Source: a virus. Taken from it: a stretch of DNA of 29,903 nt. The position numbers and the translations under genes were made by a program. Shown piece by piece: positions 1,921 through 11,981 of this stretch. Position 1 is the first letter of the stretch. Every line of letters starts with the position of its first letter. The notes under the pieces are model-generated. The model was given only the letters and a program-made list of their open reading frames with translations, did no database searches and had not been told where the DNA came from. The stretch covers positions 1 to 29,903 of the IMG/VR virus record IMGVR_UViG_3300021963_000472; one strand, 5' to 3'.

Positions 1921-3330
1921 TTATGCAACCCGCGACAGATTTCTGCGCAGGGGCTGAGACCACTTGCTGCCTGATGCTGACCCGTACATCCCCATGATTG
2001 CGTCACTGGCAAATGTCAGGACAAAGGCATCGGCCTTGTCGGGGCTTGGCAGACCCCTTCGCTTGATCTCGTCTTTCCCCTCAATGGCGATCTTGCCGTT
2101 TGAAGTGAATGAGTACCGCACTGTGGCCAGTTCAGCAATCAAGACCTCATCCTTTGGCATCTTGCAATCTCTGGCCTCAAGCCACGCCCTTGCTTTGTAC
2201 CAAAGCTCTGCCTTCAGATTTCTGTACGTTCCACCCATGGCCGGTGATTCTGAGACATTGATCCCTCTGGCCGGCAGGCCCAGCTCCCGTAGCCGGTCCA
2301 CCACCCCAGCGCCAAGGCCGATTGAATCGACCAGTATTTCCTTGGGCTGCTGGCTCGGTGGCAGCGCCTGGTACTCGGCCACCACCGCGCCAGTCAGTTG
2401 CATCAGGTCTAAATTTTTCCATGTCCGGATATTCTCAGTCACCGCATTCCCTTGGCGCTTGCATAGGGCGCTTCGGTCTGATCCAAACCTTGCCACATCC
2501 AAGCCCCAGAGCATGGGCGCGTAGTCACTTGGCGCCACATCTCGATTGACCGCGCTCTCCAGCAAGTCCATGGCAATCACAGTGTCATCATCGCCCTTGG
2601 GGAATTCACCGATCACCCTGATCCGGTAGACGTTACTCTCCTCGCCATAGCGCATGGCCATCTCTTTGACGTACTCATCCGACACCCTTGGCGAGTCAGT
2701 ACACGCCACTTGAAACGTGGTCCACTCATCAGCCAGGCGCGTATGCGTGTCATAGAAAAACCCACTAGACCTCACCGGATTACCCAGTAATAGCGTCACT
2801 GCGTTGTGTCCAGACATCGATCCAGCCGCAGCCTCGAACACTTGCTCTGGCACACCAGAAGCCTCATCGGCCACTAGCATCACATTCTCAGAGTGAATTC
2901 CCTGCAAAGCCTCTGGCTGCTCTGCCCTCGATGTCCTGGCCGAAATAAACATCTCAGTCGGTGCAGCGTTGAACTCAATCCTCTCTTGCTTGACAGTCAG
3001 TAACCCCTGCAAGGGCAAAGGCATCGCATTGATCCACCTCTTCAGCTCCGCAAACATCGCGTCATAAAGCTGGCTGCTCGTTGGCGCTGTGACCACCACC
3101 TTGACGGGACTTCGCGTCATAAAGTACCAGAGCATGGCCCAGCTGCTTGCCGTACTTTTCCCCACCCCGTGGCCACTTCTCACAGATATCTTCCTATCCC
3201 CCCGTGCTATTGCACCAAGAAACTTCACCTGCCATGGGTCAGGGTCTACCCCCAAAACCTCACGCACAAATAGCACGGGGTCCGGCTGATACCTCTGTAC
3301 CCACTGACTGAAGACATTTTCTTTACTCAT
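1921..3330 (-). CDS. terL: Terminase large subunit (packaging ATPase and nuclease)
   Basis: A 469-residue protein that powers DNA entry into the prohead and cuts the concatemer. The ATPase half shows Walker A GHGVGKS at residues 53-59, Walker B MLVADEA with D155/E156, and a coupling motif LLLGNP at 180-185. The nuclease half shows the three acidic positions expected of the RNase H-like fold: D278 in WGLDVARFGSDRS, D335 in ILVDSIGLG, and D431/D434 near SPDKADAF. Length is normal for the family. The ATG at 3330 overlaps the stop of the small upstream gene as ATGA, so terL is the last member of a coupled train of tiny genes. terS lies about 1.2 kb upstream, separated by the candidate origin and the five tiny genes. 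Confidence 0.97.
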   Translation of the reverse strand: MSKENVFSQWVQRYQPDPVLFVREVLGVDPDPWQVKFLGAIARGDRKISVRSGHGVGKSTASSWAMLWYFMTRSPVKVVVTAPTSSQLYDAMFAELKRWINAMPLPLQGLLTVKQERIEFNAAPTEMFISARTSRAEQPEALQGIHSENVMLVADEASGVPEQVFEAAAGSMSGHNAVTLLLGNPVRSSGFFYDTHTRLADEWTTFQVACTDSPRVSDEYVKEMAMRYGEESNVYRIRVIGEFPKGDDDTVIAMDLLESAVNRDVAPSDYAPMLWGLDVARFGSDRSALCKRQGNAVTENIRTWKNLDLMQLTGAVVAEYQALPPSQQPKEILVDSIGLGAGVVDRLRELGLPARGINVSESPAMGGTYRNLKAELWYKARAWLEARDCKMPKDEVLIAELATVRYSFTSNGKIAIEGKDEIKRRGLPSPDKADAFVLTFASDAIMGMYGSASGSKWSQPLRRNLSRVA

Positions 3331-3861: not shown

Positions 3862-4019
3862 TGTATTTTCTGCACTTTATTATTTGGGTGCGTTAGCCAC
3901 TTATCACCCAATATTCTCAATGCCTTAATATACTGTCTCTGATTATGTCTATTAGTGCTATTAGGCACATAATCGACATTAAACAATTGCCTGACTTTAG
4001 TTAATAACGTGATATTCAT
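3858..4019 (-). CDS. Small basic protein, 53 residues
   Basis: A short basic protein starting NITLLTKVRQLFNVDYVPN and ending in a Lys/Gln-rich tail. It contains RHNQRQYIKALRILGDKWLT, which looks like one amphipathic helix with basic faces. The ATG at 4019 overlaps the upstream TGA (ATGA) and its TGA overlaps the GTG of the next gene (GTGA). Coding density and exact overlaps support it despite its length. The sequence is AT-rich, unlike the later genes. Function is unknown; nucleic-acid binding is possible from charge. Confidence 0.65.
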   Translation of the reverse strand: MNITLLTKVRQLFNVDYVPNSTNRHNQRQYIKALRILGDKWLTHPNNKVQKIQ

Positions 4020-4180
4020 ATTATCCCCACGATTAAGTTAATGTCCACCCATGCGTGCCAGACAATTGTGCCATCCAAGCTCATTAGCTTGCAGAAGATT
4101 TTTTTGTCTTGAGCCTCATCAGTGTCTAAGACTATCCACTCTTGACCTTTGAGGACCACTGTCGCCAGCTTTGATTTCAT
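4016..4180 (-). CDS. Small conserved-looking protein, first gene of the pre-terL train
   Basis: A 54-residue protein (KSKLATVVLKGQEWIVLDT, later SLDGTIVWHAWVDINLI) that reads like a small beta-rich fold. It has a good ribosome site, GGAG seven bases before the ATG at 4180. It is the first gene after the promoter-like sequence at 4213-4240, so it opens the train that ends in terL. It overlaps the next gene by ATGA. No family is recognised. Confidence 0.65.
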   Translation of the reverse strand: MKSKLATVVLKGQEWIVLDTDEAQDKKIFCKLMSLDGTIVWHAWVDINLIVGII

Positions 4181-4240: not shown

Positions 4241-4359
4241 CTAGGTCAAAAGTTTTTTAAAAATTTTTTTTGTAGGTGTTTAGTGCCGCCACTGCCGCCC
4301 CCGCCAAGCCGGCCAAGGGGGGGGTCGCGGCCACCGACCGCCAGCCGGACACCGCTGGG

Positions 4360-4460
4360 TTATCCACGGATTTTGGTCAACTTTATTCACAGATTCCTGT
4401 GCATAACTGATCATGTAATACTTTAATGCACTTAATTCTGTGGATAACGACTTATCCACT
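4360..4460. other. Candidate replication origin: five DnaA-box-like sites
   Basis: Five 9-mers match or nearly match TTWTNCACA. They are TTATCCACG (4360-4368, +), TTATTCACA (4383-4391, +), TTATGCACA (4406-4398, -), TTATCCACA (4447-4439, -, perfect) and TTATCCACT (4452-4460, +). The last two form an inverted repeat, GTGGATAA and TTATCCAC with a 4-base spacer. Five such sites in 101 bases is far beyond chance for 9-mers of this specificity. Known biology: host DnaA binds such boxes at chromosomal and plasmid origins. That this phage uses them for initiation is inference. Confidence 0.65.
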
Positions 4461-4507
4461 TAACATAATGGTCGTTGTATAAAGTGACTGAATGCTTCGG
4501 TATTCAT

Positions 4508-5026
4508 TTACTCAGAATCGTCTACTGATACGATGCTTCGCTTACGCAGGGCATCAAGGGCCATGCTTCCCAGGTCGATGTTGACCAGTGGCTGCTGCTT
4601 GTCACCATACTCGTCTGGAGCCTGCTTAGAGGCCAGCCAGCGCCTTGTGTCCACTCTCAGCTTGGCCACCTGCGCCTCTTGAGGCGTGGCCGTGTCTGCG
4701 ATTTCTAGCGTTTCCTCTGCTAAACTTCGGCCACCACGCGCCCGCGCACGCGCAAGGGCAGAAGCCCGCGCCTCGCCCCCTCTTTCAATCCAATCGTAAA
4801 AAGCCGTGTGACTTACCTTCAACGACCTTGCCAAGCTGAGAATGGTCTCACCTTCGGAGAGTCTGTCTAGGATGGTAATTTCGCCACCGGCAGCGTGAAT
4901 CTTTTTGTTGACATCAGTAGCTTCTTTGCGTGCAAGAGCTGCTTGCTCTTTGAGACCCATTTGCCTTTCGGCAATGTTGTCTGCCACTTCTGCAAGTGTT
5001 TGTGCTTTACGTTTTGGTTCGGCCAT
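4508..5026 (-). CDS. terS: Terminase small subunit
   Basis: A 172-residue protein that should recognise the packaging site and regulate TerL. Residues 59-80 (ETILSLARSLKVSHTAFYDWI) form a helix-turn-helix. Residues 124-143 carry RVDTRRWLASKQAPDEYGDK, which matches the conserved C-terminal motif of Sf6-like small terminases (RVD..W..SK..P..YGDK). The N-terminus is basic and helical. The start ATG lies inside the last 20 bases of the VRR-NUC gene, with GAGG about nine bases upstream. It is separated from terL by the candidate origin and the tiny genes, which is unusual since the two subunits are normally adjacent. Confidence 0.88.
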   Translation of the reverse strand: MAEPKRKAQTLAEVADNIAERQMGLKEQAALARKEATDVNKKIHAAGGEITILDRLSEGETILSLARSLKVSHTAFYDWIERGGEARASALARARARGGRSLAEETLEIADTATPQEAQVAKLRVDTRRWLASKQAPDEYGDKQQPLVNIDLGSMALDALRKRSIVSVDDSE

Positions 5027-5671: not shown

Positions 5672-5909
5672 GCTTTCCCCCTAAAAACACCCCAAAGTCG
5701 AAGGGACGCCCTATAGCATTTGGTCCCTTCGTCCCTTCGACTTTTGACATCAAAAAACCTCTCATGCGTGATGTCAGAATGCGCACTAAAGTGCGCATAT
5801 CTGACAATACACTCCGAGCAATTGACTCGACGAGACCGAGGAGACCATCGAAGGGACCGTCCCTTCGTCCCCCCGACTTTGTGCCTATATTTTGAGCAGT
5901 TTTAATCAT
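5664..5909 (-). CDS. Possible 81-residue protein over a palindrome-rich region
   Basis: An open frame from an ATG that overlaps the primase-helicase stop as ATGA (5909-5906) and ends eight bases into the next gene. Those junctions are the ones used by real genes here, which favours translation. Against it, the DNA is full of inverted repeats that keep several frames open on both strands, and the protein has no recognisable family. Its sequence contains repeat-derived EGTKG and GGRRDG segments. It could be a genuine small basic protein, or a decoy frame that passes ribosomes on to the next gene. Confidence 0.4.
   Translation of the reverse strand: MIKTAQNIGTKSGGRRDGPFDGLLGLVESIARSVLSDMRTLVRILTSRMRGFLMSKVEGTKGPNAIGRPFDFGVFLGGKHD
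5694..5744. repeat. 15-bp inverted repeat with tandem GTCCCTTC units
   Basis: AAAGTCGAAGGGACG (5694-5708) and CGTCCCTTCGACTTT (5730-5744) are perfect inverted arms with a 21-base spacer. The right arm is preceded by another copy of the unit, so GTCCCTTC occurs twice in a row at 5723-5738. There is no T-run, so it is not a simple terminator. A related double unit recurs at 5859-5882. Confidence 0.85.
5772..5806. repeat. 35-base near-perfect palindrome
   Basis: TGTCAGA then ATGCGCACT (5772-5787) pairs with AGTGCGCAT (5790-5798), one bulged A, and TCTGACA (5800-5806). Sixteen of sixteen left-arm bases pair, with a two-base centre. This is a strong hairpin in single-stranded DNA or RNA, or a binding site for a dimeric protein. 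It lacks a T-run. It is centred between the two GTCCCTTC repeat groups. Confidence 0.9.
5849..5882. repeat. Second GTCCCTTC repeat group with a 19-base palindrome
   Basis: CGAAGGGAC (5849-5857) and GTCCCTTCG (5859-5867) form a perfect palindrome around one C. The right half runs on as GTCCCCCCGACTTTG, a degenerate copy of the unit at 5731-5744. The group therefore repeats the layout of the first one about 125 bases away. Confidence 0.8.
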
Positions 5910-8044
5910 GTCAACTGGACCCAAAGGTTGGCCAATTCGGTGTCATTGAATGTCTTAAAGATGGCCGTTCCGACCGCCTTTTTGACATCACTTCTGTCAG
6001 AGCCTGGAACTTGTTGGTAGATTTCTGACCACTCCAGCATGTAGTGATTGGCCAGTTCTGGTGGTGGAAATTTGGGGCAATGGCTGCCTTTTCTGATGAT
6101 GACTTGCTGGTGCTTGTTGATGACTGACTGGACATAGTTCACGGCCTTGTCGCATTTGTCCTGGATGCGCTGCTGCTTTGTATCGTTAATCCTTTCAGCC
6201 TGGGCCTGCTTTCTGTCTTCAGCACTTGATATTTGTGGTGTGACGATGATGCAATTGACATCTTGCATGTTGCCGTGCCGGTTGATGACCGCCTCATGGT
6301 GCATCTGAGAGATGAGAAGCACTTCTCTGAAGACTGGCTCATAGCGTGTCTTGATAAGCCTGAGATATCTGTTGTTTTCCTCGTCCATGAAAAGAACAGC
6401 TGTCAGTGTCGCGTCTCCAGTGTAGGCGCTCGCGCCTCGGGCCATGGCGCTGTCATCTTCCTTGGACATGGTCTTGGCCGTGTGCGTGATGATGCAGATT
6501 GATGTGTTCAGCTTTGTGAAAATGGTCTGCTTAAGAGCCGCCATGAAAGCGCCAACTTGGCTGTTGTCGTTCTCATTTTCAATGTCCAGCGTGGCATTGG
6601 CCGTGTCGATAATGACCCATGGCCGTTCATTGTTGATGGTGTTTTCAATGACATTGTGGGCCAATTCAATCACCTCATCGGCTGTCGACCTGATTGACTC
6701 AATCAAAATGAAATAATCATTTAACTGAATCGGGTCGATATTCATGTGCTTTGAATATGCGTAGAGTGATCTTTTCACCTGGGCAGTATCTTCAGACACA
6801 TAGATAATCTTTCTACGGGCCTCGCACTTAATCTCGCTGTTGAGAATAAACCCAGCAGCAGTTAATGCAATAGACAGCATGGCCGTGGTCTTGCCGACTC
6901 CAGGTTGTCCAGCAATGACTGAGAAGCTGTGGGCAAAGAATCCATCGACCAGGTAGTCGATTGGATCGAGCTTTGTAAGGTTTAAGCTGACTGGCTGCCA
7001 GCGCGATTTGGGCTTCTCTTCTGGGGTTGATGGCTGCTCAATGTACTTGATGCCAAAGTCTTCAACAGCTGATTTGCGTTCAGTTTGCTTTGTCGGCTGC
7101 TGCCACCCATGGTCCATGGCGTGCTTATAGAGCGTGCCAAGTTTGACCCCGTCCTTTTTGCCAAATGACTTCCAGTGGCTGTCTAGGTCCTTCTCGCCTT
7201 GGTATTTACTGCCAAGGCTTGACCAGGAATACCAGGCGTTTCGGCCTTGCTCACCAAATTCTGAGTGCAGTGCCTGGCCAATGGCAATCCAGTCTTCATA
7301 GTCAATGTCTGGGTTGATGGCGTTGAGCGCATCGACTGCCTTGTCAAAGTCGCTTTGGCTGCCCTTGGACAGCATTGAGGTGAAGTCAAAGGATTGGCTT
7401 GGTGCTATTGGCTTTGGCTCTTGGATTTGGATGCCAGCTGCGGCTAAAAATTCTTTAACTGTGCAGCCAAGCTCAATGAGGCTTCCACGCATAGAGTCGC
7501 CAGTCAGCATGACGTTCTTGCCTGCGCTGCCAGGATGGCCAAAGATTTCGATCTCTTGGTGATTGCCAAGGTCAATCTTTGGCGGCAGTGTCTCGTCTGG
7601 CTTGGCCAAGAAAATGATGTGGCCGCCCTTCTTGCTGTGGCTGCGCTCGGTAAGTAGGCCACGATCTTTCGCCTGGTCCATGAGCTTGACCATGCGAATG
7701 TCACGGGGCGCTGTCGAGCGTTTTGTGTCCAGGTCCAGGATGGTCAGCACCAGCTCGTTGAACGGGTCATAGGTCATGCGGCTTTGCATGAATATGCCCC
7801 AATAATCTGCCCCGTTTGGTGGGTAGATCATTTGGTTCAATAAAGAGCAATTGACCAGCTGATCATGGTCAATGTCAGCGCCAACACCAGTGCCGTTCTT
7901 TGAGACGGGGATTTTGGCGTGCGTGCCGTCTGCTTTGGGTTTTGTTTTAAAGCCACAGAAGAGAGCTTCTGGGCATGCGTTGGCAATCTCTATTGCCACA
8001 GCGTAGGATGGATGGGCCTTGGAGGCCAGCGACTCTTTAGACAT
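5906..8044 (-). CDS. Replicative primase-helicase (primase-polymerase, PriCT-2 and RecA-like ATPase)
   Basis: A 712-residue multidomain protein. Residues 1-200 look like an archaeo-eukaryotic primase/prim-pol domain, with catalytic-type LDLD (D104, D106), GGH (140-142) and EIFG (166-169). Residues 235-314 match the PriCT-2 linker (DYEDWIAIGQALH, W..WS, and a final HGW). Residues about 360-600 are a RepA/AAA_25-like ATPase with Walker A AGQPGVGKTT (378-387), Walker B WVIIDT (476-481) and a sensor-like IITHTAK (518-524). It should prime and unwind phage DNA at the fork. The Shine-Dalgarno is weak (GAAAG). A small gene precedes it, and it overlaps the next frame by ATGA. No phage DNA polymerase is seen nearby, so host polymerase use is possible. 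Confidence 0.9.
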   Translation of the reverse strand: MSKESLASKAHPSYAVAIEIANACPEALFCGFKTKPKADGTHAKIPVSKNGTGVGADIDHDQLVNCSLLNQMIYPPNGADYWGIFMQSRMTYDPFNELVLTILDLDTKRSTAPRDIRMVKLMDQAKDRGLLTERSHSKKGGHIIFLAKPDETLPPKIDLGNHQEIEIFGHPGSAGKNVMLTGDSMRGSLIELGCTVKEFLAAAGIQIQEPKPIAPSQSFDFTSMLSKGSQSDFDKAVDALNAINPDIDYEDWIAIGQALHSEFGEQGRNAWYSWSSLGSKYQGEKDLDSHWKSFGKKDGVKLGTLYKHAMDHGWQQPTKQTERKSAVEDFGIKYIEQPSTPEEKPKSRWQPVSLNLTKLDPIDYLVDGFFAHSFSVIAGQPGVGKTTAMLSIALTAAGFILNSEIKCEARRKIIYVSEDTAQVKRSLYAYSKHMNIDPIQLNDYFILIESIRSTADEVIELAHNVIENTINNERPWVIIDTANATLDIENENDNSQVGAFMAALKQTIFTKLNTSICIITHTAKTMSKEDDSAMARGASAYTGDATLTAVLFMDEENNRYLRLIKTRYEPVFREVLLISQMHHEAVINRHGNMQDVNCIIVTPQISSAEDRKQAQAERINDTKQQRIQDKCDKAVNYVQSVINKHQQVIIRKGSHCPKFPPPELANHYMLEWSEIYQQVPGSDRSDVKKAVGTAIFKTFNDTELANLWVQLT

Positions 8045-8059
8045 CGATGAATCTTTCGA

Positions 8060-8194
8060 TTACGAATCATGTGAAAGCGCATCGGCAGGCAGTGATTCAG
8101 TCTGCTTTTCGGGAGCTACCCTAGCCGTGGCTTCAAATACTATAACACCTTGGTTTAGAATGACCACTGAAATTCCTTTAGGTTGGGGTTTCAT
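8060..8194 (-). CDS. Possible 44-residue protein upstream of primase-helicase
   Basis: A short frame (KPQPKGISVVILNQGVIVF, then an acidic-polar tail ending SHDS) fills the gap between the DUF2800 and primase genes. AAGG lies eleven bases before the ATG, which is only a fair ribosome site. It ends 15 bases before the primase start. The alternating hydrophobic strand and normal codon choice favour a real gene, but there is no family match to lean on. Confidence 0.45.
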   Translation of the reverse strand: MKPQPKGISVVILNQGVIVFEATARVAPEKQTESLPADALSHDS

Positions 8195-11501: not shown

Positions 11502-11981
11502 ATGAGTTACACAAATTGGACTGTTGAGAAACTTGAAGAGCTGGCAAAGCAATACACCAGAAAAGTTGATTTTCAGGATTTTCATGGTGGTGCTTATGCT
11601 ACTGCTAGAAAACTTGGAATCTGGACACGAATCAGCGCCCACATGGAAACAAATCACAAAAGAAACATTGTGTATTTGGCCAAAGTTTTAGACCCTGAAT
11701 TTGAAAATGTTTACAAAGTTGGCATTTCCTCTGATGGTCGAATCATGCAGCGCATGTATGACAACATGCGCAAATCGGGTTTTGACTTCAAAGTTATCAG
11801 ATTTACAAAAATAGAAGTTGAAGCTGGAAAAGTTGAAAAAGAGTTGCTGGCAATTGGGACAAAGATTGACCAGCAAACAAAAGAGAGACTGGGCCGCTTT
11901 GATGGCCACACTGAATATGTATTTATGGCAGAAGAGCAAATTGCAAAGTGCCATAAAACATTAGACCAATACGCTATTTAA
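11502..11981 (+). CDS. GIY-YIG family nuclease (T5orf172/MUG113-like)
   Basis: A 159-residue protein. Residues 1-48 (NWTVEKLEELAKQYTRKVDF and a following YATARKLG) resemble the short DNA-binding repeat often found beside homing-type nucleases. Residues 55-145 hold a GIY-YIG-like core: VYLAKV at 57-62, VYKVGISS at 70-77, R80, a helix with glutamates at 106 and 113, and GHTEYV near the end. The family cuts or nicks DNA. It is more AT-rich than the genes around it and has no partner, consistent with a mobile or recently gained gene. GGAG lies eight bases before the ATG. A role in host DNA breakdown is an alternative to homing. Confidence 0.8.
   Translation: MSYTNWTVEKLEELAKQYTRKVDFQDFHGGAYATARKLGIWTRISAHMETNHKRNIVYLAKVLDPEFENVYKVGISSDGRIMQRMYDNMRKSGFDFKVIRFTKIEVEAGKVEKELLAIGTKIDQQTKERLGRFDGHTEYVFMAEEQIAKCHKTLDQYAI

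Follow-up and report, generated by a model that had tools for sequence, protein, structure and literature searches.

A putative host XerCD site with a phased DnaA-box array between the terminase genes of a freshwater tailed phage

Analysis of a 29,903-nt IMG/VR virus record (the window, meaning the whole stretch of DNA analysed), in which most genes lie on the minus strand, revealed that a DnaA-box cluster at 4360–4460 adjoins a 28-bp dif/psi-like Xer core, together making up the two halves of a putative composite host-factor site of ~130 bp. The phage carrying this element is freshwater, tailed and apparently lytic; both halves are conserved at fixed spacing among its relatives, and in a sister clade the module is replaced by a serine resolvase. 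Our preferred reading, held with moderate confidence and drawn from sequence comparison, is that the element is a multimer-resolution or circularization site for host XerCD equipped with a phased DnaA-box array, and not a replication origin. Host XerC and XerD would recognize the Xer core, most likely keeping the circular phage genome monomeric or, alternatively, circularizing or resolving terminally redundant or concatemeric copies. Host DnaA would bind the phased boxes, probably shaping or timing the recombination complex, and replication would probably begin ~1.2 kb away at an iteron locus linked to a primase-polymerase (PrimPol) gene.

The Xer core and the adjoining DnaA boxes

The Xer core (4458–4485, minus strand) reads ACTTTATACAA-CGACCA-TTATGTTAAGT and has an 11-6-11 layout consisting of a XerC-type arm (4475–4485), a central hexamer (CGACCA, 4469–4474) and a XerD-type arm (4458–4468), and thus conforms to the definition of Xer sites as two 11-bp arms around a centre of 6–8 bp. 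Scored with a position weight matrix built from 26 dif sites of beta- and gamma-proteobacteria given in PMC2731167, the core reached 22.7 bits, compared to 11.2 for the next best independent site in the window and to best scores averaging 5.9, with a maximum of 17.9, in 60 simulated windows. Relatives were collected as terminase loci from IMG/VR, giving ~130 gaps between terS and terL for comparison and 73 dereplicated gaps for alignment; phage and plasmid collections contained no close nucleotide relatives of the window. Across the 73 relatives the arms of the core are nearly invariant and the centre is variable (CGACCA, TGACCA, TGGCCA, CGTCCA and others), the pattern expected of recombination sites, and in some relatives the arms come closer still to dif (ACTTCGCACAA...TTATGTTAAGT).

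The XerD arm, down to its unusual AAGT end, exactly matches that of the Rhodoferax ferrireducens dif site listed in PMC2731167, a hint that the host may belong to the Comamonadaceae. A scan for terL in a bacterial genome collection found only two relatives, both weak leads in metagenome-assembled genomes (MAGs) and one of them on a 3.7-kb contig, neither of them a demonstrated prophage. A search with a dif pattern based on that of Rhodoferax gave no match in 398 genomes from the phylum of a Gammaproteobacteria MAG, and the published Limnohabitans and Comamonadaceae phages showed no sign of belonging to this lineage. In a separate observation, one IMG/VR contig (3300020044_000658, G025) contained a second, inverted copy of the Xer/DnaA element that was 93% identical (1–114 and 34573–34686); lying near opposite contig ends, this 114-bp inverted repeat is probably an assembly chimera.

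A preliminary description of the window had reported five 9-mers matching or nearly matching TTWTNCACA in a cluster between the terminase genes, and both the sites and their position were confirmed. Exact matches occur at 4383 (plus strand), 4398 (minus) and 4439 (minus), and single mismatches at 4360 (plus; TTATCCACG) and 4452 (plus; TTATCCACT). The number of exact matches in the whole window was ordinary (four, with 3.4 expected), but the clustering exceeded chance, since three exact sites, and five with up to one mismatch, fell within 101 nt, compared to no more than two and four, respectively, in 200 first-order Markov windows. The cluster lies between terS, encoding an Sf6-type terminase small subunit (4508–5026, minus; PF20901, 1.2e-20; phrog_1482), and terL, encoding the large subunit (1921–3330, minus; phrog_2, 3.3e-44), in a non-coding gap that ends on its downstream side at a small ORF of 54 aa (4016–4180, minus) conserved in the relative L002.

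The five sites differ in how well they are conserved. The boxes at 4439, 4398 and 4383 are strongly conserved at constant positions while TerS drops to ~55% identity. Box 4 (4439–4447, minus; TTATCCACA), an exact consensus match at a fixed offset from the XerD arm, is exact in 49/73 relatives and has one mismatch in 23/73; its first base varies between T and A, with A in 23 relatives. Variation in the box at 4398 is mostly a C/G change at the position where the consensus has N; in the box at 4383 it is chiefly the first base that differs (nine relatives). Box 1 (4360–4368) is weaker, with zero to two mismatches among relatives. The 9-mer at 4452–4460 overlaps the XerD arm, and its conservation is not that of a DnaA box: its only invariant part is the AGT that belongs to the arm, while the other half varies. 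Inverted pairing, described previously for one pair, is real and involves two: the sites at 4439 and 4452 stand back to back, and boxes 2 (4383–4391, plus) and 3 (4398–4406, minus) form a 24-nt near-palindrome at 4383–4406, TTATTCACAGATTCCTGTGCATAA, whose 6-nt middle is conserved too and whose pattern, TTATSCACAGGAATCTGTGGATAA, has an exact match in 114 IMG/VR contigs. The conserved boxes look like genuine DnaA sites, in keeping with the C/G change at the consensus N.

The two halves of the element are also held at a constant distance. Boxes 4, 3 and 2 start 21, 62 and 77 nt from the XerD arm, and this conserved spacing, which the preliminary description had proposed looking for, was found for all three boxes in 88/93 distinct sequences; the remaining five had no other offset, one box in each being too altered for the search pattern. 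The offsets stay constant although the sequence of the 32-nt spacer varies among relatives, which suggests a single nucleoprotein unit with helical phasing.

Neither the window nor nine long Xer-bearing relatives yielded a detectable tyrosine or serine recombinase, so that recombination at the core would need host XerCD. Genes for ParA, integrase, resolvase and family A or B DNA polymerases were likewise not detected in the window and ten long relatives, except for a resolvase in MW202879; in domain searches PF13614 and PF00589 were missing from all 11 records and PF00239 was found solely in MW202879. The plasmid-like flavour of the earlier suggestion is strengthened by the adjoining Xer site, but the evidence stops short of a classical phage-plasmid, and the failure to find par genes or lysogeny functions also counts against the composite Xer/DnaA reading.

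It is possible, though on balance doubtful, that host DnaA serves as an accessory factor for synapsis or timing of host XerCD recombination at this phage-borne site, coupling genome resolution to the replication initiator; if so, it would add a new kind of protein to the known Xer accessory factors. In the open-licence literature we came across neither DnaA boxes described as a Xer accessory sequence nor such a site in tailed phages. At plasmid Xer sites a sequence of ~200 bp that binds ArgR, ArcA and PepA adjoins the XerC arm (PMC11724359), whereas the XerC side of the window core is terS coding sequence and the boxes lie on the XerD side, a difference that argues against the composite reading.

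The PrimPol-linked iteron locus and the DnaA cluster as candidate origins

The replication origin is likelier to be the iteron locus at 5672–5905 (minus), a putative primary origin made of CGAAGGGAC and GTCCCTTCG repeats, than the DnaA cluster. This locus directly follows the gene for a 712-aa PrimPol-helicase (5906–8044, minus; PF08707, PF13481), which combines an archaeo-eukaryotic primase-polymerase domain with PriCT-2 and a RecA-like helicase and retains invariant D104/D106 and S137..H142 motifs, as in archaeo-eukaryotic primases. Searching the PDB by sequence gave no match, and only the predicted fold of the N-terminal part, in a model of moderate confidence, pointed to a known enzyme, the best Foldseek matches being the NrS-1 primase-polymerase. 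The PrimPol-helicase is likely the phage initiator, and its NrS-1-like domain, as modelled, probably explains the lack of a DNA polymerase noted in the preliminary description, which was borne out in that no family A or B enzyme was found in the window or in ten long relatives. Just upstream of the PrimPol-helicase start, the window also contains an Rfam match to int-alpA RNA (8067–8131, minus; 37.3 bits, gathering threshold 35.8).

Three observations favour the iteron locus. A repeat-rich stretch follows the PrimPol-helicase gene in nearly all compared phages (for example at 7113–7410 in L002), and its repeats co-vary with the primase clade, being CGAAGGGAC in the window and CTAATGCGG, TAAACCGGT, GTAAAGCGG, CGACCGGAC or others elsewhere. 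Coding-strand GC skew, averaged over 20 relatives, flips at this locus, ~1.3 kb upstream of the cluster. In most clades, though not in that of the window, the locus also contains two to four DnaA boxes at fixed positions. The combination of a PrimPol-helicase with iterons is a plasmid-like arrangement.

The preliminary description had instead suggested that replication may start at the cluster through host DnaA. On this view the cluster would be an origin, primary or secondary, at which DnaA would bind the boxes, melt the nearby A/T run and load a helicase, with the Xer site a mere neighbour, as in plasmids. We regard this as unlikely, although the interpretation is partly supported. The cluster combines three near-perfect boxes with the conserved spacing and orientation expected of a DnaA-dependent origin, clusters of boxes beside the terminase genes recur in the deep relatives L164 and L165, and the window's own clade lacks DnaA boxes at the iteron locus. 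The switch in strand composition expected of an origin, however, falls at the iteron locus and not at the cluster, the iterons co-vary with the PrimPol-helicase, and a large sister clade without the cluster still has DnaA boxes at its iteron locus.

Of the flanking sequences that had been read as an unwinding region, the nearby A/T run would suit an origin. The GC-rich block (about 4284–4357, minus, with a conserved C-run/G-run core at 4298–4324) and the A/T run (about 4248–4271) are present as previously described, but both persist in relatives without DnaA boxes, which counts against an origin here: the GC block occurs in 131/132 loci with a Xer core and in 44/45 with a resolvase, and an A/T run, counted at a length of 13 or more, in 127/132 and 44/45, respectively. 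Being independent of the boxes, the two features do not support an unwinding element driven by DnaA. The GC block showed no significant folding excess as an unusually stable single-strand structure and gave no terminator call.

The terS-terL slot in sister phages and other readings of the gap

Phage MW202879.1, whose TerL is 76% identical, lacks both the Xer core and the DnaA cluster and carries between terS and terL a serine resolvase gene, 'gamma delta resolvase'; L062 resembles it in each of these respects. A query with the MW202879.1 resolvase matched 51 IMG/VR contigs, which together with MW202879.1 form the sister clade. None of the 51 contained the Xer core, and exact DnaA boxes were missing from all of them in the stretch running from terS to 600 nt beyond the start of the resolvase, whereas those showing the iteron locus retain the DnaA boxes there. 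Among the relatives originally collected through terS, terL and the primase, a resolvase was found only in L062 and the distant L164. The slot is most simply read as the place of the phage resolution function, either as a site for host XerCD or as an encoded resolvase. Just after terS in resolvase-bearing loci (e.g. L319 and L062), at the place of the Xer/DnaA module, a palindrome, AGGGTTAACCCT, is conserved and is a possible resolvase site.

How often the exchange took place bears on whether boxes and core work together. A single change suffices on the TerL tree, so the joint loss of boxes and core could be a coincidence and is weak evidence for joint working; on the TerS tree three changes are required, and supported branches force two of these. 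In deep relatives the two halves occur apart, which counts against the composite reading and leaves Xer accessory function or timing, a secondary origin, or regulation as possible roles for DnaA. L166, whose primase is only 39% identical, has a very dif-like Xer core upstream of terL (GCTTTATATAA-CGTTCA-TTATGTTAAAT, 11914–11941, minus, 27.6 bits) with no DnaA boxes nearby; L165 has five exact boxes in ~110 bp (7436–7546) directly before the terminase genes and no Xer core; and L164 has three exact boxes alongside its resolvase. These three phages rule out a strict rule that boxes always accompany a Xer core. In phage C72C1, the slot offers no more than a weak Xer-like site.

It is improbable, in our view, that the boxes titrate host DnaA as a datA-like sink or regulate transcription, for example of late genes through the terS-terL gap. 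High-affinity boxes with an invariant inverted pair, lying in non-coding sequence upstream of terL and the genes for structural proteins, would suit such a role, but only three or four boxes are present, no convincing promoter or terminator was found at the cluster, and the fixed phasing to the Xer core would be left unexplained.

There is a slim chance that the whole gap is a packaging signal (cos or pac) whose conserved blocks are terminase sites. Every contig bearing the box palindrome encodes a TerS homologue, every class of locus conserves the GC block and A/T run, and in the related phage phiM5 a terminal repeat lies immediately before terL. The Xer core and boxes, however, are unchanged while TerS diverges to ~55% identity and are missing from sister phages with similar TerS, so that the GC block and A/T run, which may serve packaging, are the better candidates for such a signal. 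Very improbable is the proposal that the core is an attP through which the phage integrates at host dif by means of host XerCD, in the manner of CTXphi or VGJphi, given that its dif-matching arms, including the XerD arm shared with Rhodoferax, and the lack of a detected phage integrase are set against central hexamers unlike the common dif centre TGTATA, two bacterial terL relatives with no demonstrated prophage, and sister phages in which the replacement is a resolvase and not an integrase.

Comparison with known recombination sites and origins

The results describe freshwater tailed phages that form a widespread clade, in which no recombinase, integrase or classical DNA polymerase was detected and which carries putative plasmid-style docking sites for host XerCD and DnaA by its packaging genes. 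The exchange for a resolvase in the sister clade suggests that genome monomerization or circularization matters even for lytic-looking phages, and the composite site provides a natural setting in which to ask whether Xer recombination can be governed by DnaA. A cluster of DnaA boxes, in turn, need not mean an origin.

Among known systems, cer and psi keep plasmids monomeric, and Cre-loxP does so for P1. With cer of ColE1, psi of pSC101 and the xrs sites of large plasmids such as R27, the window site shares two 11-bp arms, a variable centre, a single copy per replicon, protein-binding sequences close by and, presumably, the use of host XerCD. It differs in its setting, the terS-terL gap of a tailed phage, and in its neighbouring sites, which are DnaA boxes next to the XerD arm in place of ArgR or ArcA and PepA sites on the XerC side. 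P1 Cre-loxP is likewise a site-specific recombination site of a tailed phage for monomerizing or circularizing the genome, a function that the window site may share; the window phage, however, has no recombinase of its own and would rely on host XerCD, and the arms of its site are dif-like, not lox-like.

The serine resolvases of the sister phages (gamma-delta/Tn3-type; MW202879.1, L062 and others) are found in this same terS-terL slot of phages that are otherwise alike, as an encoded enzyme compared to a bare site for a host enzyme, and have no sequence in common with the Xer/DnaA module. Origins of iteron plasmids that contain DnaA boxes, such as those of RK2, P1 and pSC101, resemble the locus after the PrimPol gene, which has iterons, joined in most relatives by DnaA boxes, yet they use a winged-helix Rep and not a PrimPol-helicase as the initiator, and the iteron locus of the window's clade has no DnaA boxes. 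Finally, the IMEX phages CTXphi, VGJphi and TLCphi also carry a dif-like site for host XerCD, whereas the window site belongs to a tailed dsDNA phage and has a centre unlike dif, with no integrated copy found.
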